Shown: positions 2,000-20,852 of the stretch, in pieces
How positions within the stretch are numbered: the first letter of the stretch is position 1
Layout: each line of letters opens with the position of its first letter
DNA from: a virus
Length of the DNA stretch: 28,134 nt
Virus record (IMG/VR): IMGVR_UViG_3300017987_000291
Location: 1 to 28,134 of that record
Strand: one strand, 5' to 3'
The notes under the pieces: model-generated
Databases searched by the model: none
Told to the model about the DNA's origin: nothing
What the model saw: the letters and a program-made list of their open reading frames with translations, nothing else
Position numbers and translations under genes: made by a program

Positions 2000-2204
2000 A
2001 CTTAGCCCTCTTGCGTCCAGCGGCAGCCATCTTGGCCATCTTCTTTGCGCCGAACTTTTTCCGGCCTATGACAGCGGCCAAAGCCTTTGGGTCTTCAATC
2101 CCGTCTTCCTGTCTTCCCAAGGATCGTTGAAGCCGTTGAAAACGTTTCCCGGTTCCCAACTTGGGCAGCTTCTTTTTCTGTCCACGTCCGCCACGCTGTG
2201 CCAT
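1998..2204 (-). CDS. Small basic phage protein (IGRKKFGAKKM motif)
   Basis: This 68-residue, very Lys/Arg-rich protein starts at an ATG sharing one base with the terminase stop (TAATG), so it is probably translated by coupling. Its C-terminal half, LAAVIGRKKFGAKKMAKMAA, resembles the 'IGRKKYGxxxFxxMAAxGR' segment I know from short proteins encoded beside terminase or portal genes in many phages. Their role is not established to my knowledge. It contains no transmembrane segment. It is one of several small basic proteins in this late region. Confidence 0.75.
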   Translation of the reverse strand: MAQRGGRGQKKKLPKLGTGKRFQRLQRSLGRQEDGIEDPKALAAVIGRKKFGAKKMAKMAAAGRKRAK

Positions 2205-4972
2205 TACGCTATTACCCCCGCTCCTACCATGAAGTTCTGTTGAACTTCGATTTCGCCCGTGTCTGCCGGTTCCTGCGCGCCGTAGGCGGCAAGCATGAGA
2301 GAAACAGGGTAGTCGTCATGCGCTCCCGGTTCGTCTGGATGCTCGCACACCATGTAGTTGTTCTTGTACAACTTTCTCAAGTCCAACATCTCTCCCACGA
2401 AGCGCCTGAAGTGTCTTGACTTTCTCGCCTTCTCTCCGGCAGGGAAGGAGAGTCTACCCGACATGAGATCGGAATGCAATATCTTAAAACCATCCGACTT
2501 CGAAGCCGGGGTGAACTTCACTCCCTGCACTTCGACAAATCCCATTTCAGGCGTTCCATCCGCCCCCTTCCCGCGATCAAACTCGCTGTAGTACACGGTG
2601 AACTTGTCAAGTCCCCATTCCCCCACACCTGTTGCATCGAGAGTGATCTTCCTCAGTCCTTTGAAATTGGAGAGGAAGTTCACAATCTCGTGGAATTGGT
2701 GCTCGTAGTTGTCGCCGAGAAGCATGTGCCAAGCAACGACACGCTTGTTGTAGGCGATCCAATGGAAACTCCCTTCAGGCGTGTCAACCCATTCATCAGC
2801 GACGGGAGTTCTCCAATCCACGTCCATTACGGTAATCACACTTGGATCGTGGATTTTTCCGAAGTCAATCCCGGCGATCTGAGTTGTCACACGAGAAGAT
2901 CGGTGCCAAATCTCGTGATAGCCGCCGTGCGTCTTAGCGATTGCGGGCGTCATAAGCTGCTTGTCCGTGATGAACTGTCCACGCTCAAGCAACCATTCGC
3001 AGCAATAGCTAAGACGGAACTCATCGCTGTCTTCACCAAGGCGAACTTTTTCTTTCTTGATGTAGTCCCGATACATGGAGTTGTACTTTTGACAAACAAG
3101 ATAGTCGTATCGGTAGTGGTTCTTCGCTTCGCCTTGCGCGTACAAACGCTGATTGGACTTGATCGACGTGTAGAAATCAGACTTCTCCGTCGAACAAGTT
3201 CCGATCTTCACAATGACGCCGTTGTACGCGGCAACCATGGGATGAAGGCTGTTACCTGTTACGATTCCATTAGCAATGACAAAATGCCGTTCATCTGGAA
3301 CAGTCACGCAGTATGTGGGTTTCTTTCCGATATGTCTGACGGATTTAACACTAACAAACTGTATGTCTTCAGGATAAAACTGACTTCTACTCCGCCCTCT
3401 TTTTCCTTGAATAGTGCGGATACCCGCTTCAAGAGCGTCTTGTTTTGGCCCTAAGTTAAACTGCTTATGAAATTCACGCACATCTTCAACAGACTTTATA
3501 TGCAGTCGGTACATATAGGTGCCTAGACGTTCTTTTATTCCCGGCAAATTCCCTGTGCTTTCCACGAAACCTTCGAACTTAGCACATTGAATGCCGAAGT
3601 GTAACAAAGTTTTCCGAAGGCCGTCTACAAGATACTCTGAACAGTTGGAAAATGAAACAACAGGTTTCACAGTCGGATTTTCTATACTGCCGTCAGCTAT
3701 AATCAACCCGGAAGCAAGTCCGCGCAGAAATTCTAAGCTCCAAGGAAGATTGGGTATACGCTTGTTCTCACGCTTTGCCCCCCAAACGCCGATTTTTTTC
3801 AGCCATTCTGTCAACTTATTAGAGCCTTTCTTGTTTCCAGGCGAAGTAAGCCCACATTCAAGCATTCCACTAGATTGCTCGTTATAGACTACAGGACGCA
3901 CGCCGAATTCATGCGGACATATACGGTCAAGTAGTTTCTTTACAGAAGGCTCAACAATTATTTGCGGCTTATCGCCAGTGAAACATCCGTCACCAAGAAG
4001 CAAGCCAAGCAAGAATCCTCGATCAAAGTTCCCTAAGACACCTGCTGCATTATTCAATCGTGTAGGAACAGCCATTTGCCAGCCGGGCTGGATTTCGTAA
4101 GTCAAGGCTTCGAAAGGAACCCTCCGAGTTCTGCTGCGCACAAAATGCCGGTGATTGGCCGTAACGTCTAAGTATCTTCCTCCTGCTAATGTCACACGAT
4201 ACACGGGTTGCACACCATTATCATGGTACTCAATATCACGAGACTCAAAAAAGCCAGAAGGAGTCAACACAGGCAGTTTCTTTTTGACAACTTCTTCCAC
4301 AGGAACTTCGATTCCTCCAGAAGTAATGAAAAGCGTGCCTTCAGCAAAACACTTCCTCACCTTCAGCGTCCCGATGTCTTGCGCCTCATCAAGAATCAGG
4401 ATGTGGTACGTGTCGCCTTCGATGTGTGACTGTTCCGAAGCCGACTGAGAACGAATCCGGCTTCCATTCGAAAGACGAGTCTTGTTGGCGTTGCCGATGT
4501 CAAGGGCAACGTTCAATTCGGCGGCTACTTCCTTCGTGGTGTCCGTTTCGAGCGTGTCACGAAGGCGACTGTAAACGATGTCAGCCTGTTCCTGTTTCGG
4601 CGCGTAGATGCCGACAACGACACCGTACTTGTAGCCGCGATAGTTGCCTTGCTCGTCGGTACAGTTCAAGCGCCAATCGTCTTCGAAGATTTTCATTCTC
4701 GCAAGAAGCGGAAGAATCAAGCAGCACGCGGCGAGAATGTCCGCAATCAACTGAGACTTGCCGGACTGCCTAGCCCAAAGCGCGGTAAGCATGTCGCCGT
4801 CATGGAGAAGAACGGCTTCCACAAAACGATAGCCGAACTCCTTCTGATACTTGAAGTGCCTCTTCTGAGAAAGGATTTCGGCAAGACGGAGAATACGCAA
4901 AACAAGACTATCCAACGGCACAGTCGGTTGACTGGTTTCCCGCGTGCAGACACGCGGTGCCATGGGTTCCAT
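2204..4972 (-). CDS. terL: Terminase large subunit containing an in-frame intein
   Basis: This is the ATPase/nuclease motor that cuts and packages phage DNA. Numbering from the ATG at 4972 (922 residues), Walker A is ARQSGKS at 67-73 and Walker B is LILDEAQD at about 192-199. After a 367-residue intein (208-574) comes the coupling motif GTCSTEK. The RNase H-like nuclease has Asp in GIDFGKIHDP (703), LDATGVGEWG (779) and HDDYP (886-887). Without the intein the protein is about 555 residues, normal for this family. The frame is open upstream to a GTG at 5068, but that would overlap the preceding gene by 300 bases on the same strand. ATG 4972, 8 bases after that gene's stop, is the better choice despite a weak ribosome site. 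No small terminase subunit was recognised. Confidence 0.93.
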   Translation of the reverse strand: MEPMAPRVCTRETSQPTVPLDSLVLRILRLAEILSQKRHFKYQKEFGYRFVEAVLLHDGDMLTALWARQSGKSQLIADILAACCLILPLLARMKIFEDDWRLNCTDEQGNYRGYKYGVVVGIYAPKQEQADIVYSRLRDTLETDTTKEVAAELNVALDIGNANKTRLSNGSRIRSQSASEQSHIEGDTYHILILDEAQDIGTLKVRKCFAEGTLFITSGGIEVPVEEVVKKKLPVLTPSGFFESRDIEYHDNGVQPVYRVTLAGGRYLDVTANHRHFVRSRTRRVPFEALTYEIQPGWQMAVPTRLNNAAGVLGNFDRGFLLGLLLGDGCFTGDKPQIIVEPSVKKLLDRICPHEFGVRPVVYNEQSSGMLECGLTSPGNKKGSNKLTEWLKKIGVWGAKRENKRIPNLPWSLEFLRGLASGLIIADGSIENPTVKPVVSFSNCSEYLVDGLRKTLLHFGIQCAKFEGFVESTGNLPGIKERLGTYMYRLHIKSVEDVREFHKQFNLGPKQDALEAGIRTIQGKRGRSRSQFYPEDIQFVSVKSVRHIGKKPTYCVTVPDERHFVIANGIVTGNSLHPMVAAYNGVIVKIGTCSTEKSDFYTSIKSNQRLYAQGEAKNHYRYDYLVCQKYNSMYRDYIKKEKVRLGEDSDEFRLSYCCEWLLERGQFITDKQLMTPAIAKTHGGYHEIWHRSSRVTTQIAGIDFGKIHDPSVITVMDVDWRTPVADEWVDTPEGSFHWIAYNKRVVAWHMLLGDNYEHQFHEIVNFLSNFKGLRKITLDATGVGEWGLDKFTVYYSEFDRGKGADGTPEMGFVEVQGVKFTPASKSDGFKILHSDLMSGRLSFPAGEKARKSRHFRRFVGEMLDLRKLYKNNYMVCEHPDEPGAHDDYPVSLMLAAYGAQEPADTGEIEVQQNFMVGAGVIA
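3251..4351 (-). mobile_element. Intein with LAGLIDADG homing endonuclease inside terL
   Basis: The insert runs from Cys (CFAEGTLF) to Asn (NGIVTGN), 367 residues, with Ser as the +1 extein residue (junctions KVRK/C and N/SLHP). Seen in order are the N-terminal splicing block beginning CFAEGT, block B VTANHRHFV with the TxxH motif, two dodecapeptide motifs LLGLLLGDG and SGLIIADG of a LAGLIDADG endonuclease, and the C-terminal block YCVTVPDERHFVIANGI. The penultimate residue is Gly, not the usual His. The insert sits between Walker B and the coupling motif of the terminase ATPase, a conserved site of the kind inteins favour. Both endonuclease motifs retain their acidic residue, so it may still be active. 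Confidence 0.92.
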
Positions 4973-4980
4973 AAGACTGT

Positions 4981-5367
4981 TCACGGATTCCGCGTCTCCA
5001 GTTCCTTCTGAATGACTTTCACGTCTATCTGCATCTGTTGCTGGCGCGTGTCCATCTTTGTGTTCCACGCCTTCTGTTCTTCCATGTGCCGCTCGATTCT
5101 CTTGTACGCTTTCTCGGTGGTCTCCTTGTTGTGCTCGTTATCTTTCTGCAAGTCCTTGATGTTGCCGTGGTTTTCCCAACTCCGCTTGTTGACCGGCAAA
5201 AGGCGCTCTTCGTTTCTCTGAATGCCTTCTTTGTTCTCTTTCACATCCCGCTGCATCTGAAGAAACGTGTAGTAGAATCCGATGATCGCGGCGCATAGCG
5301 CGAGCACGAACTTAATCAATTCAAATCCATGCTTCGACGCATGTTTCTTCAGCGTTGAAGTGTTCAT
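4981..5367 (-). CDS. TM plus coiled-coil protein next to terminase
   Basis: 128 residues from the ATG at 5367, which overlaps the upstream gene's stop as ATGA. A hydrophobic segment ELIKFVLALCAAIIGFYYTF (about 15-34) is followed by a long charged helical region with heptad-like spacing (NKEGIQRNEERLL, KAYKRIERHMEEQKAW). This one-TM plus coiled-coil layout is similar to the gene at 5732-6046 and to XhlA-type holin accessory or spanin-like proteins. With neither lipobox nor lytic domain visible, function is only inferred. The position before terL is where a small terminase would be expected, but the membrane segment argues against that. Confidence 0.75.
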   Translation of the reverse strand: MNTSTLKKHASKHGFELIKFVLALCAAIIGFYYTFLQMQRDVKENKEGIQRNEERLLPVNKRSWENHGNIKDLQKDNEHNKETTEKAYKRIERHMEEQKAWNTKMDTRQQQMQIDVKVIQKELETRNP

Positions 5368-6588: not shown

Positions 6589-7146
6589 CTACTCCTTGAC
6601 CACCTGATACGTAAGCATCTCGTCGTCCACGTTGTACGTCGCCGATACGGAGTATTCCGCGAGAACGTTCGTGTTCGCGATGGTATCCGCCTTGGAAGGG
6701 TATATCCTGATCGTCGCGGAAGTCAAGTTGTGTCTCGCGTCATACACCGGAGAGAAGATTCTGAAGTTCTCTTGGACAAGCCCAAGGACTCTTTGCAAGA
6801 GGGTCAGAAGGGAAGTTACGTCTCCGGTAACTGTATCGACGGCAGTCCGAATGGAATCCAGATCGTTTGCTTCCACGAGCACGGTTTCAAGTTCGGTCGA
6901 AATGTATTCGTCCAGCGTCGTGTGTCCTGCATCGGTGTACGTCACGAAACGAGCGTTGTACTTCCCTACGGCAGTGAAGGTGTAGGACGCTTCATAGTAG
7001 CCGCCCGAACGATGCGGAAGATCGACAGTGACAAAGGGTGTTGCCGATCCGGGAATGAAGATTTCCACTTGAGGAAACTTCGTGGTTTCCCTATCAGCCA
7101 ACTGAAGGCCCAAAGAAGTTGTCTCGTCTTTGACGCCACGTATCAT
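6589..7146 (-). CDS. Hypothetical tail-region protein
   Basis: 185 residues from ATG 7146, which overlaps the stop of the preceding gene as ATGA. A longer frame to 7254 would overlap that gene further. The N-terminal half is beta-rich (VEIFIPGSATPFVTVDLPHR, YYEASYTFTAVGKYNARFV), like an Ig-type module. A helical connector (NDLDSIRTAVDTVTGDVTSL) follows, then a second beta-rich part including SATIRIYPSKADTI. This layout resembles phage tail-tip or baseplate accessory proteins, but no family is recognised with confidence. Confidence 0.75.
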   Translation of the reverse strand: MIRGVKDETTSLGLQLADRETTKFPQVEIFIPGSATPFVTVDLPHRSGGYYEASYTFTAVGKYNARFVTYTDAGHTTLDEYISTELETVLVEANDLDSIRTAVDTVTGDVTSLLTLLQRVLGLVQENFRIFSPVYDARHNLTSATIRIYPSKADTIANTNVLAEYSVSATYNVDDEMLTYQVVKE

Positions 7147-7964
7147 TTCAAGAACCTCGTTGCATCCGGCGCTGTCAACACTGCCTGTCTCACTTTTTCC
7201 GGCCACATGCTTTGCTTGCTGAACATTGGATTGTTGCAGGCCACGGAACAACAAATCATCGGGAACTGCAAGAACGCATCCGCTAGATAGACTCTCTGCT
7301 TGAATCTATCGAACGGAAGAAAGATCGCTGTCAGAGAAGCCTTGATTTTCCTCTTCGACGGAGCATGTCGCTTGATCTTGTCACAGCAGAAAGCGCCAAG
7401 TTCGGTGCAATACGAAGCGGGCTTACCGCTCGGCTTGAAATCGAAGTTGTAGCCGATGCCGGATTGACTCAATGCGGCATCAACAATGATCTGCGCTTCC
7501 GAATGCACGACCCACGGACGAACGACAGCGGCATAGTCGGAATGGAACAGAAGTTCTCCCAAGTCTTGAACAACCACTCCTTCGCTGATCGCGTGTGTAA
7601 TCGTTCTTACGAACGTCCCCACTTGTTGTCCGCCCGTATGAACTCTGTCCACTCCAAGAGATCGAGGTTTGTAGATGAACTTCGTTTTCTGATCCCTGTA
7701 TCCGGTGACAGGCCCGGTAAACACAGCAAGATGTTTCCATGCTCCAGGAATGAACTTCGCGGAACCAATATAGTGTCTGGATTGTGTAAGGATGAAGTCT
7801 CCGGGCTGCATGAGACTCGTAAAGCAACGGTAGTCATCCCATGTGAAATGCACTTTTGGCATCCCGTAGACAACAGCGGGCCAAAGAAGCGGATTCAGAC
7901 AGAGACACTTGGGAGAAGCCCAAATGTCGCCGCCAAAAGCCGCTAGCCTCGCCTGAATGTTCAT
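7143..7964 (-). CDS. YiiX/YebB-like permuted papain-fold (C92) hydrolase
   Basis: 273 residues. The segment PGDFILTQSRHYIGSAKFIP then GAWKHLAVFTG (54-84) carries the catalytic-type His78. IGYNFDFKPS then SYCTELGAFCC carries Cys186 followed by Glu188. This His-first, Cys-later order is typical of the circularly permuted NlpC/P60-like YiiX/YaeF group, whose members act as amidases, peptidases or lipid hydrolases. In a phage tail region it could cleave cell wall or lipid during entry or lysis, but the substrate is unknown. There is no signal peptide. The start follows GAGGAACAGG. The C-terminal 60 residues contain extra Cys and match nothing known to me. Confidence 0.72.
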   Translation of the reverse strand: MNIQARLAAFGGDIWASPKCLCLNPLLWPAVVYGMPKVHFTWDDYRCFTSLMQPGDFILTQSRHYIGSAKFIPGAWKHLAVFTGPVTGYRDQKTKFIYKPRSLGVDRVHTGGQQVGTFVRTITHAISEGVVVQDLGELLFHSDYAAVVRPWVVHSEAQIIVDAALSQSGIGYNFDFKPSGKPASYCTELGAFCCDKIKRHAPSKRKIKASLTAIFLPFDRFKQRVYLADAFLQFPMICCSVACNNPMFSKQSMWPEKVRQAVLTAPDATRFLK

Positions 7965-10404: not shown

Positions 10405-10780
10405 GGTCCATCTCCTTGTTCTTCTTCGTGTCGGCCACGTGCATGGACTCGACATCCTCGATCAGATCGTACAAGTCGCCCGCGCCTTCAGACATGACGC
10501 CGGGAAAGCCTTCCTTCGTTTCGCACAACTTGTCGTGTGCTTCCTTCAGGAATTTGGCCTGCGTCACGGTCAGTTCGATTGTTCCCCCTTCCTCCTTGTA
10601 AGCCCCGCGAAAAGGGTCGACAAAGGTCATGCCTTTTTTCTTCACTTGCTTGAAGATCGAAGCATGGATGCGCGTTTCCCCTCTCGTGTGGACGCTCGTG
10701 TTAGACAGAAGATGGTGGCACGCCTGAACGGTTAAAGCATCCATCTTCATGGAGTACGCCTTCTCGTCTTTCCTCGACAT
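10385..10780 (-). CDS. Hypothetical soluble protein in adhesin block
   Basis: 131 residues, mostly helical and charged, with no membrane segment. Features are DALTVQACHHLL, FKQVKKKGMTFVDPFRGAYK and IELTVTQAKFLKEAHDKLCE. The good ribosome site GGAGGAAAGAGCG supports the ATG at 10780. It is the first gene after the long fibre, separated by a 78-base gap with a small hairpin. It could be a fibre assembly factor by position, but nothing in the sequence shows this. Confidence 0.7.
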   Translation of the reverse strand: MSRKDEKAYSMKMDALTVQACHHLLSNTSVHTRGETRIHASIFKQVKKKGMTFVDPFRGAYKEEGGTIELTVTQAKFLKEAHDKLCETKEGFPGVMSEGAGDLYDLIEDVESMHVADTKKNKEMDHGKTPA

Positions 10781-10831
10781 CGCTCTTTCCTCCGTGTCCT
10801 AAAGGTTAGTGTTCGAGCGCCTTCTATCCTG

Positions 10832-10848
10832 TGCGGACAGTTTCCGCA
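10832..10848. other. Small intergenic hairpin after the fibre gene
   Basis: TGCGGA and TCCGCA form a 6-bp stem with a 5-base loop, 11 bases past the stop of the fibre gene on the minus strand. There is no T-run after it on the transcribed strand, so it is at most a weak terminator or an RNA-stability element. It lies in the only sizeable gap of this region. Confidence 0.3.
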
Positions 10849-10858
10849 ACCTATTTTC

Positions 10859-12961
10859 TTAGGCTCCGATGAAACCAAGGCTCGTCAGGTCGTCAATGAG
10901 CGCATGGATTCTTTCGGCCAGTTCCTCCAGGGTGACAGTGCTGGTGGCAAACGTCGTTCTTGTGTCCGTTCCCGTGGGAGCGCCCCATCCTGTGATCTTA
11001 TCCCCGATGAAGAGTCCCTTGTACGCCCCGCCATTCTCGGACACCTTGAACGTCTTGCTCGTGGAGTCGAAGTAGATTCGGCCTTCGCCTGAAGGAGAGA
11101 CAGCGGGGGCAGACATTTCTTTCACGGAGATTGCACCAAGCATGTCGAGCGCCGTGTTCACGGTTCCGGTGTGACCGATTCCGATCTTCCCTTCGACAAG
11201 AAGACCATCCGTGGGAGCCGCATTGGTTCCCGCATAGCCCGAGCCAATGGTTACATCTCCAGCAACATCCATGATGTTACCAGCGACGACATCCACAAGT
11301 CCAACACCTACTCTGTGTTTCAATGTGACTTGCCCGCTGGCATTCGATGTGAGCGTGATGCCCATATTGGTATCCGTCGCTTCGATGTTTATATGATGTT
11401 TGAATGCTTTTATGTGCATACCTCCTTGACTGTAGTCGATATAAGCATACTCGCTGCTTGAGTGAGCAAAATAAAGAAACGTTTGCCATGCGTCCTGTGT
11501 GTCTCCGATGAGAATTTTCGGAACACCGGCAGCCATGGTTCCGCCCATGGACGTGTCATCGCCGACCAGAAAAGAAGCAACGCCGATTGCGGGTTTATTC
11601 GAAACATGCAACTTTGCGTCAGGAGATATCGTTCCCAACCCGATGTTTGTTCCGTCATCGTAGACTACAGACGTTTCAAGCAGCGTTGTTCCATTCCAAC
11701 GGGCGAGATAGTTGTCGGTTCCGCTTCCCGCGCCTCCTACTCCCCCCCCCCCTCCCGGAATGAGATCGACCCAAGCCCCGCCGTTTTCGCTGACTTGGAG
11801 TTTGCTCGTTGTAGTAAAAAAACGGATTGCTCCGGTGCTTGCGGATGAAACAGCGGCACCACTCGCTCGCCAAACTCCACGGGCACTTGTTTCCATGTCG
11901 TCGGAAGACCACATCTTGCCGCCGACATAGAGGCCATATCCAGCCTGGGGAGAGCCGGAAGAGCCAATGGAAACTCCGGTTGCGTTCATTACGATCCGTT
12001 GGGCGCTGTCGTAAACAAATACAACAGCGGGACTACCCACACCAGTTTTGAGATAGTAAGCGCCACAGTCCGTATTCTCGTACATTCCCCATCCCGGAGC
12101 GCCAGCGGAGCCGCTTCCAAGATGGGCAAATTGTGTGTATAAACTTGCCGTATACAAGTGATAACCCACCACAGGCGCTCCTGAAGAGCCAATAGATGTT
12201 CCTGTCGCGTTCATCACGATTCGTTGAGAACCGCCGAATACATGAATGACGTATCCGCCTGAGACATTTAGATAATACGATCCGCTATTTTGATCGCCGT
12301 AATAACTGTAGCTCGGAGTGGCAGCAGAACCTAAGCCAGCATGACGCTGGCCATCTACTCGTGAATTACCTGTAGTGTAGATATTCTGGTACACAGTAAG
12401 TGCGTATCCAGCAGCGGGTTGTGAACCAGTACCGATACAAACACCCGTGGAGTTGATTTCGATGTGTTTTGTCGCGTCGAAAACCATATACATGTGATTG
12501 AACGTCGAATTATAGTAGATTCCAGAATCCGTGTTAGACGAAAAAGAATACGTCGGTGCGCCTGAAGTTCCGTCTCCAAGTTGGTGGGGATCAGGATGGA
12601 CACCGCCGCCGGACAAATCGTGATCCGTTCCGGCGTCGTCTGTAAACATGATGACATTCGGAGTATCGCTTTTCACCCACAAGATGCCTTTTCCGGGTGC
12701 CGGAGTTCCTGGGTGATCCGCGCGTTCCGTGAAAGCAACGCCGCCACTCAGATCAACAGTCTTGTCCGTGTTGTTCCATTTGAAAGCGTTGTCCGTTCCA
12801 AAGGTCGAAGTGTCTACAACAAATAGAACTTGATTCGCGGCAGCGGTCGGTCCGTTCAAAGAATCCGGTTTCAATTTTTCGTGATCGACCACGCCGCCTC
12901 TTGTTACAAGAAGTTCGCCTGTACTTCCAGACGTGAGTTGTTTCACGGCTACCTGAGGCAT
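10859..12961 (-). CDS. Long tail fibre protein with internal repeats and a poly-G linker
   Basis: 700 residues, probably a host-recognition fibre. After an N-terminal part beginning MPQVAVKQLTSGSTG comes a common fibre module (GKGILWVKSDTPNVIMFTDD). Three repeats of about 70-80 residues follow (roughly 128-208, 210-280 and 281-355), each with 'GxxxxPxYS/WxxYxxxxxGxYY', an INSTG or MNATG step and a GTGSxPxxGY or GSSGxPxxGY step. Then come SKLQVSENGGAWVDLIP, a Gly linker encoded by 11 consecutive G, and GTDNYLARWNG modules. The protein ends with a short helix (LEELAERIHALIDDLTSLGF) typical of trimerising fibre ends. There is no S74 peptidase domain. The start follows AGGAG. Confidence 0.85.
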   Translation of the reverse strand: MPQVAVKQLTSGSTGELLVTRGGVVDHEKLKPDSLNGPTAAANQVLFVVDTSTFGTDNAFKWNNTDKTVDLSGGVAFTERADHPGTPAPGKGILWVKSDTPNVIMFTDDAGTDHDLSGGGVHPDPHQLGDGTSGAPTYSFSSNTDSGIYYNSTFNHMYMVFDATKHIEINSTGVCIGTGSQPAAGYALTVYQNIYTTGNSRVDGQRHAGLGSAATPSYSYYGDQNSGSYYLNVSGGYVIHVFGGSQRIVMNATGTSIGSSGAPVVGYHLYTASLYTQFAHLGSGSAGAPGWGMYENTDCGAYYLKTGVGSPAVVFVYDSAQRIVMNATGVSIGSSGSPQAGYGLYVGGKMWSSDDMETSARGVWRASGAAVSSASTGAIRFFTTTSKLQVSENGGAWVDLIPGGGGGVGGAGSGTDNYLARWNGTTLLETSVVYDDGTNIGLGTISPDAKLHVSNKPAIGVASFLVGDDTSMGGTMAAGVPKILIGDTQDAWQTFLYFAHSSSEYAYIDYSQGGMHIKAFKHHINIEATDTNMGITLTSNASGQVTLKHRVGVGLVDVVAGNIMDVAGDVTIGSGYAGTNAAPTDGLLVEGKIGIGHTGTVNTALDMLGAISVKEMSAPAVSPSGEGRIYFDSTSKTFKVSENGGAYKGLFIGDKITGWGAPTGTDTRTTFATSTVTLEELAERIHALIDDLTSLGFIGA
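11742..11752. repeat. 11-base G/C homopolymer inside the tail fibre gene
   Basis: Eleven C on the plus strand, read as 11 G in the coding direction, encode part of PGGGGGV at residues 402-408 of the fibre. A run of this length is prone to polymerase slippage. A one-base change would shift the frame and remove the C-terminal 290 residues, so it could act as an on/off switch or a length variant. A sequencing indel here is also possible. Confidence 0.8.
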
Positions 12962-13038: not shown

Positions 13039-14445
13039 TCAGACATGCGTATCCAGAACGATGTCGATCTTATCTGTCGCGGCCAACTCGTATCCGGCGA
13101 CACTACCGTTCCAGCGCAGCGTATCGCCGTTGGCGAGATTGGTCTTATCGCGGGCCGTGGTGGTGTCTCCCTGGCCGAAGTAGCATTCACCGGAATTGTC
13201 GTCGCTGACGTACATCTTCACACCGTTGACATACACAGCCACATCACAATCGCCCTTTGGCAGAGCCGCCGTGGCAATGGTGGTATCCGTGGCCTTGTCG
13301 CCATCCGAAGACGTGACGTTCGCAGTGAGATTCTTGTAGCTCTGAGTGGACACCGGAGCCTTGATCCCGCCAGCCGCCACGAGAACGGAAGTACCATCGT
13401 TCTTGACAGAGAGCGTAGCGCCTGCCCCGCCGTCAATCCCGTTCCCTTGAGCAGCCAAACGCAGATTGGCCGAACCATCCGCTTCGATTCCAGTTCCGGC
13501 GATAGCCGCAATGTCAACGCCCACACCGTTTGACGTGACATTCACGCCTTGGATGTTTCCGCCGGTTTCGGAATCGATGTCGATAGTGAGAAGATGTTCA
13601 TTTCCGCCGCCAGCCGTCTGCGCAAGGCCGTTGCCCGCAATTTCACTGGCATCGACCTGAACGTTGTCGGCGTTGACTTGAACACCCTTTCCGGCATCGC
13701 CCACATCGAGATCGCTTCCATTTTCGACAAGGCCCGCACCAGCGCCCGCCGACGTAATAGCGGTGAACTGCGTCCATGATCCCGTCGGCACAGTGCCGTC
13801 GAAAACGTAGCCGTAGTTCTCGAACACGCAGGCTTCACCACGAACCAACGCAGCTTCGCCATCCGTTACCGTGATGAAAGAGGGAGTAAGACTCGTCCCA
13901 TCCCACTCCGCAATCTTGCCGTCATCCGTGCCGTCCGTGGCAGGACTGTACAAGGTTTCGCTTTCCGAAACGATAGCACGAGTGCCGTCAGGCGGATAGT
14001 TGCTGGAATGCCCAACAATGATCTTCCAGGAAGTCCCGTCGAACTCCGCAATGTCGCCTTCATCCAGTTCGTCCGACGTTCCGGCAGTCGGTGTCCCGGT
14101 GGCTCCCGTCGCAACAACGGCCCAACCCGCGCTCGGCGAAAGAGCATTGATTTCCGCGACGGTCCTGTTCCCTATGTACGTGCGAACATGCACGGGTTCA
14201 AGCCAACTCAATCCCGCGACAGCGGCATCAAGTTGGCCCTTGTTCACGGCATCGGTTGAATCGGTGCCGTTCGCAAGATTGGTCAGCTTGTTGCTGCCCA
14301 TACTCTGAGCAGCAGTGAACGCTTGACCACCGTCAGCCTGAATCACGGCTTCGGCCAATTTCGAAAGCGCGATGGCGGCAGAAGCCGAGATTTGAGAGTT
14401 GGTGATCGTCAGCGCCTTGATCTGTTTGCCGTTGATCTGAGGCAT
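13039..14445 (-). CDS. Tail fibre/collar-type protein
   Basis: 468 residues from ATG 14445 (MPQINGKQIKALTITNSQIS), with GGGAG upstream; a longer frame exists but would run into the previous gene. The N-terminal segment with ALSKLAEAVIQADGGQAFTA and KLTNLANGTDSTDAVNKGQL is typical of tail fibre proteins ('lt-NLa-p-DaVNkgqvd'). Long repetitive beta-rich, glycine-rich regions follow. The C-terminal 50 residues (GECYFGQGD, DTLRWNGSVAGYELAATDKI) are shared with the gene immediately upstream. It is likely a structural fibre that shares a C-terminal docking or trimerisation module with that gene. Confidence 0.82.
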   Translation of the reverse strand: MPQINGKQIKALTITNSQISASAAIALSKLAEAVIQADGGQAFTAAQSMGSNKLTNLANGTDSTDAVNKGQLDAAVAGLSWLEPVHVRTYIGNRTVAEINALSPSAGWAVVATGATGTPTAGTSDELDEGDIAEFDGTSWKIIVGHSSNYPPDGTRAIVSESETLYSPATDGTDDGKIAEWDGTSLTPSFITVTDGEAALVRGEACVFENYGYVFDGTVPTGSWTQFTAITSAGAGAGLVENGSDLDVGDAGKGVQVNADNVQVDASEIAGNGLAQTAGGGNEHLLTIDIDSETGGNIQGVNVTSNGVGVDIAAIAGTGIEADGSANLRLAAQGNGIDGGAGATLSVKNDGTSVLVAAGGIKAPVSTQSYKNLTANVTSSDGDKATDTTIATAALPKGDCDVAVYVNGVKMYVSDDNSGECYFGQGDTTTARDKTNLANGDTLRWNGSVAGYELAATDKIDIVLDTHV

Positions 14446-14459
14446 TTTCTTTTTCTCCC

Positions 14460-15179
14460 TTAAACCACGTAGACTAGATCGATCTTGTCCGTCGGGGCTA
14501 GTTCGTAGGTCGCTACGCTCCCCATCCAACGCAAACTATCGCCAGCTTGAATGTTGGCGATTGCCCTTGGCACACTGGGTGTAGCTGGATCGGCGAAATA
14601 GCACTCTTTCGTCTTAACACCGTCTCCAACTTCAACACCAAGCCCGTTGACAAAGACAAGGACCATTCCATTTGCTACAGGCGTGATTGAAATGCCGCCA
14701 GCCATGGCAGCATCTTCGTCGCTGGTAGTTGCATTGGCAGTAATGCCTTTGTCTGCGATGGCCAGCGCATCCGTTGTTCCTCCCCCACCGGCCAAGGGAA
14801 AAACTTTCATAAACGTGAGTGTGGTAACGCCGACAGTAATAGGATCGTCAGTTACAAGTATCCATCCCGTATCGCCGTTCGTCGTTCCTTCTGTGACGAC
14901 TACCACAAGTCCGGCAGTAACATCTTGGTCCTGGTTCGCGTCCGTCGCGCGGACGGGGGGACCAGCAGATTGAATTACCCAAATTCCGTTCTCGAAGTTC
15001 CCATTGTCCTTCACGAGAACACGGTCGCCACCAACAAGAACTTCACCGTCGAGATTGAATCCGGGTATCAGATTGGCAAGAACAACAGGTGCCGTCGTAG
15101 CGGCACGAACACTGGCTTTGAAGTCCAGTGCATCTATGACGGCTTGACTTACTCCACTAGCTGCACTAAGGCGACTCAT
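14460..15179 (-). CDS. Fibre-type virion protein sharing a C-terminal module with 13039-14445
   Basis: 239 residues. The N-terminal half follows the fibre pattern 'DFKASVRAATTAPVVLANL ... LDGEVLVGGDRVLVKDNGN ... NGIWVIQSAGPPVRATDAN'. This is a compact beta module common in tail fibres and hydrolase-free adhesins. The C-terminal part (KECYFADPATPS, DSLRWMGSVATYELAPTDKI then DLVYVV) parallels the end of the next gene. The start at 15179 overlaps the cysteine-cluster gene by 14 bases, with GGAGGG upstream. Confidence 0.82.
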   Translation of the reverse strand: MSRLSAASGVSQAVIDALDFKASVRAATTAPVVLANLIPGFNLDGEVLVGGDRVLVKDNGNFENGIWVIQSAGPPVRATDANQDQDVTAGLVVVVTEGTTNGDTGWILVTDDPITVGVTTLTFMKVFPLAGGGGTTDALAIADKGITANATTSDEDAAMAGGISITPVANGMVLVFVNGLGVEVGDGVKTKECYFADPATPSVPRAIANIQAGDSLRWMGSVATYELAPTDKIDLVYVV

Positions 15180-18744: not shown

Positions 18745-19449
18745 TTATCCGTGCTCAAAAGCCCTCGTCTTAAGCGTATTCCAGAGCGTTTGAAGCGCCG
18801 GGGGAAGACCCTCAGTGGTCGGCGGGTGCATGTCATGGAAGCGATTGACGAGCGCCACCACGCCTTCAAACGCCGTGGGTGAAGGCTGGATTCCAAAGAA
18901 GTCTCCGCTTGGCTCTTTCGCCTTGAAGAACGCCGGGACAAGGGCAGGGTCTTTCCAAAGCCGCTCGAAGTCGAAGATCACGAACTTGTTTGACTGAAGA
19001 AAATGATCCACCCTCCCCCGGTGGTAGTTGAACCACGCTTCGTTGCCCGATCCGGTGGGTACGCCGAAGTTCGCCTTCATCGCCGGGGCAACGCTTGTGG
19101 GATGCCGGATAACGAGCATGAAACGAGCATCGGGAAAGAGCATGTGCCACGCATCGATGTAGAGCAGCGTTCGTGGATCATAGAAGCACCAAGGCCGTTC
19201 CCTCTCCATGAGGCTCTTCCACTTGTTGATCTTCCCGTAAGGGAAGAACGTCTTTGCATCCTGTGGAGCAGGTACAGAGAGAATCCCGGTCTTGTCGCAC
19301 CCGGATACCATCTGCGCGTCTTTGTGCACTTTATCGACAATGCCCTTATCGACGTGCTCGACTCCACAGACTTCGAGAATGTCCTCAAGCAGAGTAGCGC
19401 CACTACAAGGCATCCCGAGAACGATGATGGGCGCGTTAGTGTAGCTCAT
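18745..19449 (-). CDS. Sulfotransferase-like protein
   Basis: 234 residues from ATG 19449 (ATGA overlap with the previous gene, AAGGAG upstream). APIIVLGMPCSGATLLEDIL (6-25) has the shape of the 5'-phosphosulfate loop of PAPS-dependent sulfotransferases ('PRSGTTLL'). MLVIRHPTSVAPAMKANFG (111-129) matches the 3'-phosphate-binding R-x-P-x-x-x-x-S region. VIFDFERLWKDP resembles the later 'yE-x-L-x-x-dP' step. The length is near the family minimum. Such enzymes transfer sulfate to sugars, peptides or small molecules. The acceptor here is unknown and could be a host surface polymer or a virion protein. A plain P-loop kinase is less likely given the second motif. Confidence 0.72.
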   Translation of the reverse strand: MSYTNAPIIVLGMPCSGATLLEDILEVCGVEHVDKGIVDKVHKDAQMVSGCDKTGILSVPAPQDAKTFFPYGKINKWKSLMERERPWCFYDPRTLLYIDAWHMLFPDARFMLVIRHPTSVAPAMKANFGVPTGSGNEAWFNYHRGRVDHFLQSNKFVIFDFERLWKDPALVPAFFKAKEPSGDFFGIQPSPTAFEGVVALVNRFHDMHPPTTEGLPPALQTLWNTLKTRAFEHG

Positions 19450-19679
19450 CTTGCTTTTCTCCTTTTTGGTGGTCTTCCTGGCCGTTTGTTCAACTTCTTC
19501 GCTTTCTCGACAGCCTTGAGAATGCGCTTGAACGACTTGGGACTGTGTTTTGCCAGCGCGGACCAAGCCCCCATATAGAAAACGTCCGTCATAGTCACTT
19601 TTCCCTTTTCAACAAGCCGTTTTAGCTCATCGAAAAGGCACTTCTCTACTCGAATATTGACTTGTACGGATTTTTTCAT
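19446..19679 (-). CDS. Ribbon-helix-helix-like small DNA-binding protein
   Basis: 77 residues from ATG 19679, which overlaps the stop of the preceding gene as ATGA. An upstream ATG at 19703 would add 8 residues. KSVQVNIRVEKCLFDELKRL then VEKGKVTMTDVFYMGAWSAL has the strand followed by two helices of an Arc/CopG type ribbon-helix-helix domain. The C-terminus is a basic tail (KRPGRPPKRRKAR). It probably binds DNA and may regulate phage promoters; targets are unknown. Confidence 0.65.
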   Translation of the reverse strand: MKKSVQVNIRVEKCLFDELKRLVEKGKVTMTDVFYMGAWSALAKHSPKSFKRILKAVEKAKKLNKRPGRPPKRRKAR

Positions 19680-20104
19680 TGGCTTTTTCGTTGTCTGTCC
19701 CACTCTTCACGTGCTTTGGTGCCGAGAGGGGGCGGCAAGGCTTCGTCAACCGCTTCGATTGGCTCTTTTTCCGCTGTTTTTCCTTTCTGGATGACTTTCA
19801 CGACAGGTGGCGGCGTTCGAACATCGTTTTTCACGACCACATCCGGCACTTTCACGACTTCGCGGACAACTTCACGCTCAACTTCGCGGATTTGGACAGG
19901 CGGCACGTTGTTTTGAATCTGAATCGAGCCTTCCGGGAGCGTTGCCTTGACTTCAGACGTTACTTTCACATCAGAAGGCTGATAAACCGGCTGAACAAAC
20001 TTCGGTGGAGACACAAAAAGCGTCCCGAGAACGATTGCCGCCGTGCAAATCGGCACTCCAAAGAAGATCACAAGAGGTTCCTTCCCCTCCATCTCCAATT
20101 TCAT
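19676..20104 (-). CDS. Membrane-anchored protein with a Pro/Val-rich exterior part
   Basis: 142 residues from ATG 20104 (ATGA overlap; AAAGGAG upstream). One hydrophobic segment (LVIFFGVPICTAAIVLGTLF, 11-30) is followed by a long Val/Pro/Glu-rich region (IREVEREVVREVVKVPDVVV) likely to lie outside the membrane. It ends in a basic segment. No lipobox and no catalytic motif are seen. It could be a tether or envelope-spanning protein. Confidence 0.68.
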   Translation of the reverse strand: MKLEMEGKEPLVIFFGVPICTAAIVLGTLFVSPPKFVQPVYQPSDVKVTSEVKATLPEGSIQIQNNVPPVQIREVEREVVREVVKVPDVVVKNDVRTPPPVVKVIQKGKTAEKEPIEAVDEALPPPLGTKAREEWDRQRKSQ

Positions 20105-20457
20105 GGCGTTTTCTCCTTTCTTCGTCCTGTAGGACGCATTGTTACCCCCCATCTAACAAGAAAACTTCCCACAGCTTGTCCCGACAAGCTGAAAGTCTTT
20201 CCAATTTCCCGAAGAGTCATCCCTTTCGCGTACATGCGGCGCATTCGCTTCAATCTTTCAGGATGCTGACAGTTACCTTTGTTTCTAACATTCTCTCGGA
20301 GTTCCACATTCCGTTTATGGAGATTCACACGCACGCCAGCGCACGACATTTTGAAGCGTTCGGCGAGTTTCTTGACAGTTTTTCCTTCGCCGTACAACTT
20401 AGCGATCAAATCTCCGCGCTTTTCGCACTTCGCTCTAGTGAATCTTTTCGTTTTCAT
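20101..20457 (-). CDS. Double helix-turn-helix DNA-binding protein
   Basis: 118 residues from ATG 20457, which overlaps the preceding stop as ATGA. Two similar HTH segments are visible: LIAKLYGEGKTVKKLAERFK then MSCAGVRVNLHKRN (17-50), and RLKRMRRMYAKGMTLREIGK then TFSLSGQAVGSFLVRWGV (68-105). Both have the 'GkTvkkLAerFkmS' / 'GmTLrEIGktFslS' form of resolvase- or sigma-region-4-like HTHs. The tandem arrangement suits binding of a dyad or direct-repeat operator. It is a candidate regulator for the palindromes in this window. Confidence 0.72.
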   Translation of the reverse strand: MKTKRFTRAKCEKRGDLIAKLYGEGKTVKKLAERFKMSCAGVRVNLHKRNVELRENVRNKGNCQHPERLKRMRRMYAKGMTLREIGKTFSLSGQAVGSFLVRWGVTMRPTGRRKEKTP

Positions 20458-20852
20458 TCCGGTTTCCTCAACACGATCTGACTGACGATCAGCAACGTGG
20501 ACTTCAAGACTTCTCCACCACCCCAAAGCTGAACTTCGTATGTATCAGGCCCGTCAAACTTCACTTCCACTCCGGCAGTAATCGTCGCCAAGGCTGTTCT
20601 GTCTTTTATGTGAAGCGTCAATTCAAGATTCGCTAAAATTTCTCCCGTGCTGACTTTCACAATGCGCAAACTCGTTTTACAATCACCACCCCCGCCTGAA
20701 AAAGAGATAAACACATTCTTTCTCATCACTGCGGGAAAACTGAATGCGTTGAAGTTCTTGAATATACCGATGATGCTCATCTTGCCGGTGCCTTGCTCAA
20801 GGATGGTTTGGTCACAAAGAGTGAGAATATGTACAACAGGCATCATTTCCAT
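20454..20852 (-). CDS. DUF6941-like protein
   Basis: 132 residues. MEMMPVVHILTLCDQTILEQ then GTGKMSIIGIFKNFNAFSFP matches the start of the DUF6941 family ('hillCD-x-x-x-D-x-x-tgKlsliGvFd...fPa'). A beta-rich domain with FISFSGGGGDCKTSLRIVKV and YEVQLWGGGEVLKSTLLIVS follows. Proteins of this family have no established role. A perfect 20-base palindrome lies 12 bases before the start codon, between it and the upstream gene, so expression is probably separately controlled. Confidence 0.7.
   Translation of the reverse strand: MEMMPVVHILTLCDQTILEQGTGKMSIIGIFKNFNAFSFPAVMRKNVFISFSGGGGDCKTSLRIVKVSTGEILANLELTLHIKDRTALATITAGVEVKFDGPDTYEVQLWGGGEVLKSTLLIVSQIVLRKPE

Follow-up and report, generated by a model that had tools for sequence, protein, structure and literature searches.

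Can a phage protein of the sulfotransferase family still transfer sulfate when residues at its donor-contact positions have been replaced, and if so, to which acceptor? The question is raised by a 234-aa protein encoded in the window, by which we mean the whole 28,134-base viral record analysed here (Table 1). Phage sulfotransferases are already known, and what distinguishes this one is an altered P-loop. Sulfotransferases have been reported in viruses from glacier ice (PMC8290583, excerpt) and from an underground estuary (PMC10829341, excerpt). A search of open-licence papers for phage- or virus-encoded sulfotransferases gave nothing beyond a 2023 study of OM43 phages (PMC10580990, excerpt), which states that the biological function of phage sulfotransferases is unclear.

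Gene and family assignment

The open reading frame runs from an ATG at 19449 to a stop at 18745. Its frame is intact and its codon usage is ordinary for the phage, with a codon adaptation index above that of 40 of the 66 phage genes of at least 100 aa, so that the gene looks like a settled resident of the genome.

The initial annotation had called the product a phage-encoded sulfotransferase-like enzyme, and this family placement is upheld. Pfam PF13469 (Sulfotransfer_3) matches the protein at 47.2 bits (E 4.3e-12) in two stretches that cover both motif regions; because this score lies above the cut-off of 27, a chance resemblance is excluded at the level of sequence. The sole NCBIfam match is a weak one to NoeE (NF052394), at 20.6 bits against a curated equivalog cut-off of 500. 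The PHROG search returned no match at 0.1, and in PADLOC-DB, which covers known and candidate anti-phage defence, neither the protein nor its 7 neighbours had a match at E <= 0.01.

A tblastn search of plasmids at E <= 10 retrieved 12 records, nine of them annotated as sulfotransferase or NoeE and only one with E < 1e-3, and hhalign against a profile of 7 plasmid sulfotransferases gave a probability of 96.1% over residues 85-169. The closest plasmid match, in Burkholderia arboris, falls in an ORF that carries no annotation and matches no Pfam family at 1e-4, and it was not built on. Among 50,697 phage records there was no tblastn match at 1e-3; at E <= 10 there were two weak ones, H33 (at a gene annotated as minor tail protein) and H34/L093, and none of the cyanophage sulfotransferases was found. 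The viral contigs searched with the 234-aa protein yielded the same phage only. The sole match in genome contigs, a Methanothrix stretch, was oxidoreductase-like and unrelated when its frame was read.

Table 1. Positions of the features discussed, in window numbering unless a locus of another contig is named
Feature	Position	Strand	Basis
Putative sulfotransferase gene, 234 aa	18745-19449	minus	Pfam, codon usage, second-strain identity
AAGGAG, ribosome-binding-site-like, before the sulfotransferase ATG	19459-19464	minus	sequence
5'-PSB (P-loop) motif, residues 12-20, GMPCSGATL	19390-19416	minus	alignment columns
Cys15 of the P-loop	19405-19407	minus	alignment columns
Ala18 of the P-loop	19396-19398	minus	alignment columns
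3'-PSB strand and helix, residues 109-125, RFMLVIRHPTSVAPAMK	19075-19125	minus	alignment; hhalign
Arg115 of the 3'-PSB	19105-19107	minus	alignment columns
Ala123 of the 3'-PSB	19081-19083	minus	alignment columns
Small basic DNA-binding-like protein	19446-19703	minus	phrog_876 'transcriptional repressor', E 2.6e-4
Protein with one hydrophobic segment	19676-20152	minus	hydropathy 2.39 over 19 residues
Helix-turn-helix protein	20101-20526	minus	Pfam HTH_7, 29.8 bits, cut-off 23.8
Fibre or decoration-like genes	13039-15179	minus	YadA stalk; tail fibre and head-decoration PHROGs
7-Deazaguanine DNA-modification genes (other contigs of the same phage)	L005:3-3960 and L042:3159-4442		

The putative PAPS-binding site

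In the plant enzyme AtSOT18, the 5'-phosphate is held by Lys93, Gly95, Thr96 and Thr97, and the 3'-phosphate by Arg177 and Ser185, among others (PMC5482895, excerpt). The equivalents in the phage protein are Cys15, Gly17, Ala18, Thr19, Arg115 and Ala123. Both PAPS-binding motifs are recognisable, as the initial annotation had said, the P-loop as GMPCSGATLL (residues 12-21) and the 3' motif as FPDARFMLVIRHPTSVAPA (residues 105-123), but they are not intact, with Cys15, Ala18 and Ala123 at donor-contact residues.

Position 15, a Cys in the phage protein, is Arg in all 20 aligned relatives, three of which (L011, L015 and L019) were collected with a pattern requiring Arg, the other 17 not. In 13 archaeal Sulfotransfer_3 members, caught by the Pfam profile and including two of the same 20, the position is always basic (7 Arg, 4 Lys, 2 His). 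Position 18 is Ala in the phage and Thr or Ser in 20/20 relatives, so that the paired hydroxyl residues at 18 and 19, present in every relative, are reduced to Thr19. Arg115 of the 3'-PSB is kept, as in 20/20 relatives. Eight residues past it, at position 123, the phage has Ala, and the relatives have Ser (17/20) or Ala (3/20); in one archaeal member, L059, Glu takes the place of this Ser. Measured against a competent sulfotransferase, the protein retains the 3'-PSB Arg and lacks the 5'-PSB basic residue, the paired hydroxyls and the 3'-PSB Ser. In these alignments the Ser-to-Ala change at 123 is common to some relatives, while Cys15 and Ala18, seen in no other member of the 20-relative and archaeal panels, set the phage protein apart. 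A search for the Cys P-loop itself retrieved 10 stretches, of which one was the phage and the other nine were not sulfotransferase-like when their frames were read; because the pattern was exact, this is a loose indication of absence elsewhere.

Several candidates were left out of the 20-relative panel: near-duplicates (L084 of L083, L018 of L015, L024-L026 of L021); L093, with the divergent loop STARCRST and Arg at the aligned position; L010, L013, L014 and L016, below the Pfam cut-off (the 3' motif of L014 also aligned poorly); L012, L017 and L023, with partial or non-sulfotransferase frames; and the second protein of the viral contig G004, whose P-loop was not read. Archaeal loci other than L063 and L066 were counted apart from this panel, and L058/L064, which are one gene, are in neither. 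G004 is a 318-kb contig with two Sulfotransfer_3 genes (L048 and L049) and comes from dataset 3300028840, which is also the source of the 75.8-kb contig described below.

The same contrast is seen with the closest known systems. NoeE of Sinorhizobium fredii NGR234 belongs to the same Pfam family and aligns by tblastn at 26.4% over residues 7-131, but has a GIPRSGTT P-loop and Ser at the 3' motif. Plasmid sulfotransferases of Sulfitobacter and Paracoccus (e.g. WP_180829993.1) carry Sulfotransfer_3 in the two that were scanned, and share RHPxxVAAA, with Ala at the 3' Ser position in three panel members; unlike the phage protein, with which they have 20-27% identity, they keep an intact GLHRSGTS P-loop. 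The sulfotransferases of the cyanophages S-SKS1, S-SRM01 and S-SCSM1 and of the OM43 phages are phage-encoded, as here, but the cyanophage proteins have a GLPRSGST P-loop and Ser at the 3' motif. Those of the OM43 phages are described as Sulfotransfer_3 (PF13469) and similar to that of S-SRM01 (PMC10580990, excerpt).

What these substitutions would mean for catalysis is suggested by work on other enzymes. Activity of AtSOT18 falls below detection in Lys93Ala and Thr97Ala, and in Thr96Ala it is 3- to 12-fold lower or undetectable depending on the substrate, with activity on two of three (PMC5482895, excerpt). In NDST1, Lys614, the equivalent of AtSOT18 Lys93, has a role as catalytic acid (PMC3733922, excerpt). 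Of the earlier proposal of a working PAPS-dependent enzyme, the family stands, and the activity is made less secure because the P-loop lacks its basic residue and a Thr, and the 3' motif its Ser.

Structure models

An alignment-based AlphaFold model of the phage protein reached a mean pLDDT of 48.8, and a single-sequence model 38.1. With the former, Foldseek returned 18 PDB matches at E <= 0.001, all of them sulfotransferases; these matches are not independent, since sulfotransferases had been placed in the alignment behind the model. The best of them are the tyrosylprotein sulfotransferases TPST1 and TPST2, to which the sequence itself shows no significant similarity (8w5z_A, E 0.37), and tyrosine sulfation is not indicated. 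For the same low-confidence model, VIA-align ranked sulfotransferases together with APS kinases, gluconate kinases and GTPases, their Z values being close, and the one BFVD match at E <= 0.001 was to a zeta-toxin-domain protein, sulfotransferases appearing in the ranks that followed. The sulfotransferase fold is therefore one that the sequence, not the model, supports, and placement in another P-loop family, the outcome that would have spoken against the initial annotation, was not obtained from the sole usable, low-confidence model.

The phage and the gene neighbourhood

The 75.8-kb contig IMGVR_UViG_3300028840_003967 represents the same phage, with 99.8-99.98% identity over three shared blocks, and its sulfotransferase gene is identical at the nucleotide level. 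As two strains carry the same codons for Cys15, Ala18 and Ala123, a single sequencing error is an unlikely source of them. Two more contigs of the phage (G002 and G003; 76.1 and 26.4 kb) share the portal and end before the sulfotransferase locus. From the overlap of the two longest contigs, the genome is at least 95 kb.

The SPP1-type portal, terminase large subunit, capsid and tape-measure genes identify a tailed phage, with a bacterial or archaeal host. Named relatives of the terminase and portal, at 23-35% identity, are BRock-group Streptomyces phages, a Bacteroides phage, Paenibacillus phages and unnamed Caudoviricetes. The terminase gene (2204-5068, minus) has an intein-like insert with LAGLIDADG_3 at 39.5 bits, over the cut-off, while the intein splicing domain scores just below its own. 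A Peptidase_C92 permuted papain-like amidase (7143-7964, minus; 36.7 bits, cut-off 27) is a candidate cell-wall enzyme. On another contig, a MoxR-type AAA ATPase (bpMoxR, 100 bits) adjoins a weakly VWA-like protein (L042:8825-11606).

The sulfotransferase gene lies within a run of overlapping minus-strand genes. Its start overlaps the stop of the small basic protein gene in an overlap of the ATGA type, and an inner ATG (19679) of the latter gene overlaps the stop of the hydrophobic-segment protein gene. The neighbours had been described as a membrane-anchored protein and DNA-binding proteins, co-transcribed with the sulfotransferase gene. A protein with a hydrophobic segment (without a Pfam or PHROG match) and helix-turn-helix and phrog_876-like proteins are indeed present, and it is from the gene overlap that we infer co-transcription. 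Promoter and terminator patterns at the locus did not rise above those of shuffled sequence. The run also includes a gene for a DUF6941 protein (20454-20852, minus; 44.4 bits, cut-off 27). Downstream, small basic and hydrophobic-segment proteins are followed by fibre-like genes and then by terminase and portal genes, which agrees with the structural genes that the initial annotation had placed there.

The strains differ at two places near these genes. A 109-base difference (window 19946-20052), which could be a real deletion or an assembly fault, breaks the frame of the hydrophobic-segment protein in the other strain, and this neighbour is therefore unlikely to be an obligate partner of the sulfotransferase. 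Further, about 2.1 kb of the window (10485-12596) has no counterpart between the two otherwise 99.8% identical strains; the block falls in a large protein near the fibre-like genes, and an exchange of receptor-binding sequence is possible. The sulfotransferase gene is identical in these two strains that differ in the fibre region.

Neither APS kinase nor PAPS reductase was found in the four contigs of the phage, nor were the Pfam glycosyltransferase families tested (Glycos_transf_2 and Glyco_trans_1_4). From this it follows that any PAPS would have to come from the host, and probably any glycan as well.

Proposed function and alternatives

The reading that we put first, tentatively, is a glycan-type sulfotransferase of bacterial derivation that would use host PAPS to modify a host surface glycan through a remodelled donor site. 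The Pfam score, the annotation of most plasmid matches and the hhalign result all point to such a family member, and some relatives have genes linked to sulfation or glycans nearby. On a Desulfolutivibrio plasmid, one relative is separated by a single gene from an annotated adenylyl-sulfate kinase (cysC) gene, and the S-SRM01 sulfotransferase has a glycosyltransferase two genes off and a nucleotide-sugar epimerase four genes off. The retention of Arg115, the intact frame, the phage-like codons and the identity in two strains are also consistent with a gene kept for its activity. Against this stand the absence of a basic residue and of the first Thr from the P-loop, the Cys found in no other panel member, and the corresponding AtSOT18 mutants, undetectable for Lys93Ala and lowered for Thr96Ala. 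The NoeE score is far from its cut-off, the phage contigs lack the glycan-making families tested, and S-SKS1 and S-SCSM1 (two of the three cyanophage neighbourhoods read) have no annotated glycan genes adjoining their sulfotransferases.

On this preferred reading, the gene would be a Sulfotransfer_3 accessory gene whose nearest counterparts are bacterial sulfotransferases such as NoeE, and its translation is probably coupled within a minus-strand operon that runs into the virion genes. The most likely site of action is the host cytoplasm during infection. There the protein would take the sulfuryl group from host PAPS, the donor suggested by the absence of a PAPS-making gene from the phage contigs, and attach it to a host precursor, either of a surface glycan or of a glycolipid. 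Sulfation of the host glycan would alter phage adsorption or superinfection. Given the remodelled donor site (Cys15, Ala18 and Ala123, with Arg115 kept), the activity would probably be lower or differently organised.

Close behind this enzyme, somewhat less probable but a serious contender, comes a pseudo-enzyme, in which the fold would transfer no sulfuryl group and be kept for binding, whether of PAP, PAPS, a host protein or a glycan, and the P-loop would have decayed once selection for catalysis had ceased. The replacement of an Arg and of a Thr or Ser that are each present in 20/20 relatives, the 13/13 basic residues in Archaea and the inactivity of AtSOT18 Lys93Ala (PMC5482895, excerpt) favour it. 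However, the frame is intact, codon usage is normal, Arg115 and Thr19 are kept, residues elsewhere can compensate for natural substitutions, and the Ala123 equivalent occurs in 3/20 relatives. A bolder version, which we consider unlikely, is a phage-specific protein of the sulfotransferase fold that abandoned Arg/Lys-assisted transfer and either binds PAP, PAPS or glycans non-catalytically or uses a different chemistry of Cys15 in the P-loop, such as a transient thiol adduct. If true, it would mean that a sulfotransferase fold has been repurposed in phage-host conflict.

The other readings are less likely. Sulfation of a virion protein such as a fibre, rather than of a host glycan, is improbable: the gene lies on the same strand as, and upstream of, the fibre-like genes, but about 3.6 kb of small genes intervene before the first of them. 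The tyrosylprotein sulfotransferases at the head of the Foldseek matches would fit such a role, but the alignment behind the model included sequences with tyrosylprotein sulfotransferases as their structurally solved relatives (shown for L011), so that this match is not independent.

We give very little weight to an action on modified phage DNA. The phage does encode a 7-deazaguanine set, comprising FolE, PTPS/QueD-like, QueE-like, QueC, a second QueC-like protein and a DpdA-like transglycosylase (phrog_887, 141.6 bits). However, QueC, QueD, QueE and FolE lie at the far end of the 75.8-kb contig from the sulfotransferase, and no deazaguanine modification is known to require a sulfotransferase. 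Phage systems that modify bases with the help of a sulfotransferase have been proposed (Iyer 2013, cited in PMC10829341, excerpt).

A kinase-like member of another P-loop family with a mere resemblance to sulfotransferases, as the mixed VIA-align ranking might suggest, is hardly credible, given a Pfam match over the cut-off across both motif regions, the hhalign probability over the 3' motif, the uniform Foldseek matches (18/18 in the low-confidence model) and the absence of the GKS/T loop of kinases. What probability remains belongs to acceptors other than those named here.

Implications

Sulfotransferase genes have turned up repeatedly in phages, and with its Cys P-loop this copy adds a testable twist. 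Should a phage member of the family prove able to transfer sulfate with Cys in the P-loop, current views on which residues of the donor site are essential would have to change; should it not, phages retain the sulfotransferase fold for another purpose. Either outcome bears on whether a Pfam label is enough to class phage sulfotransferases as auxiliary metabolic genes.
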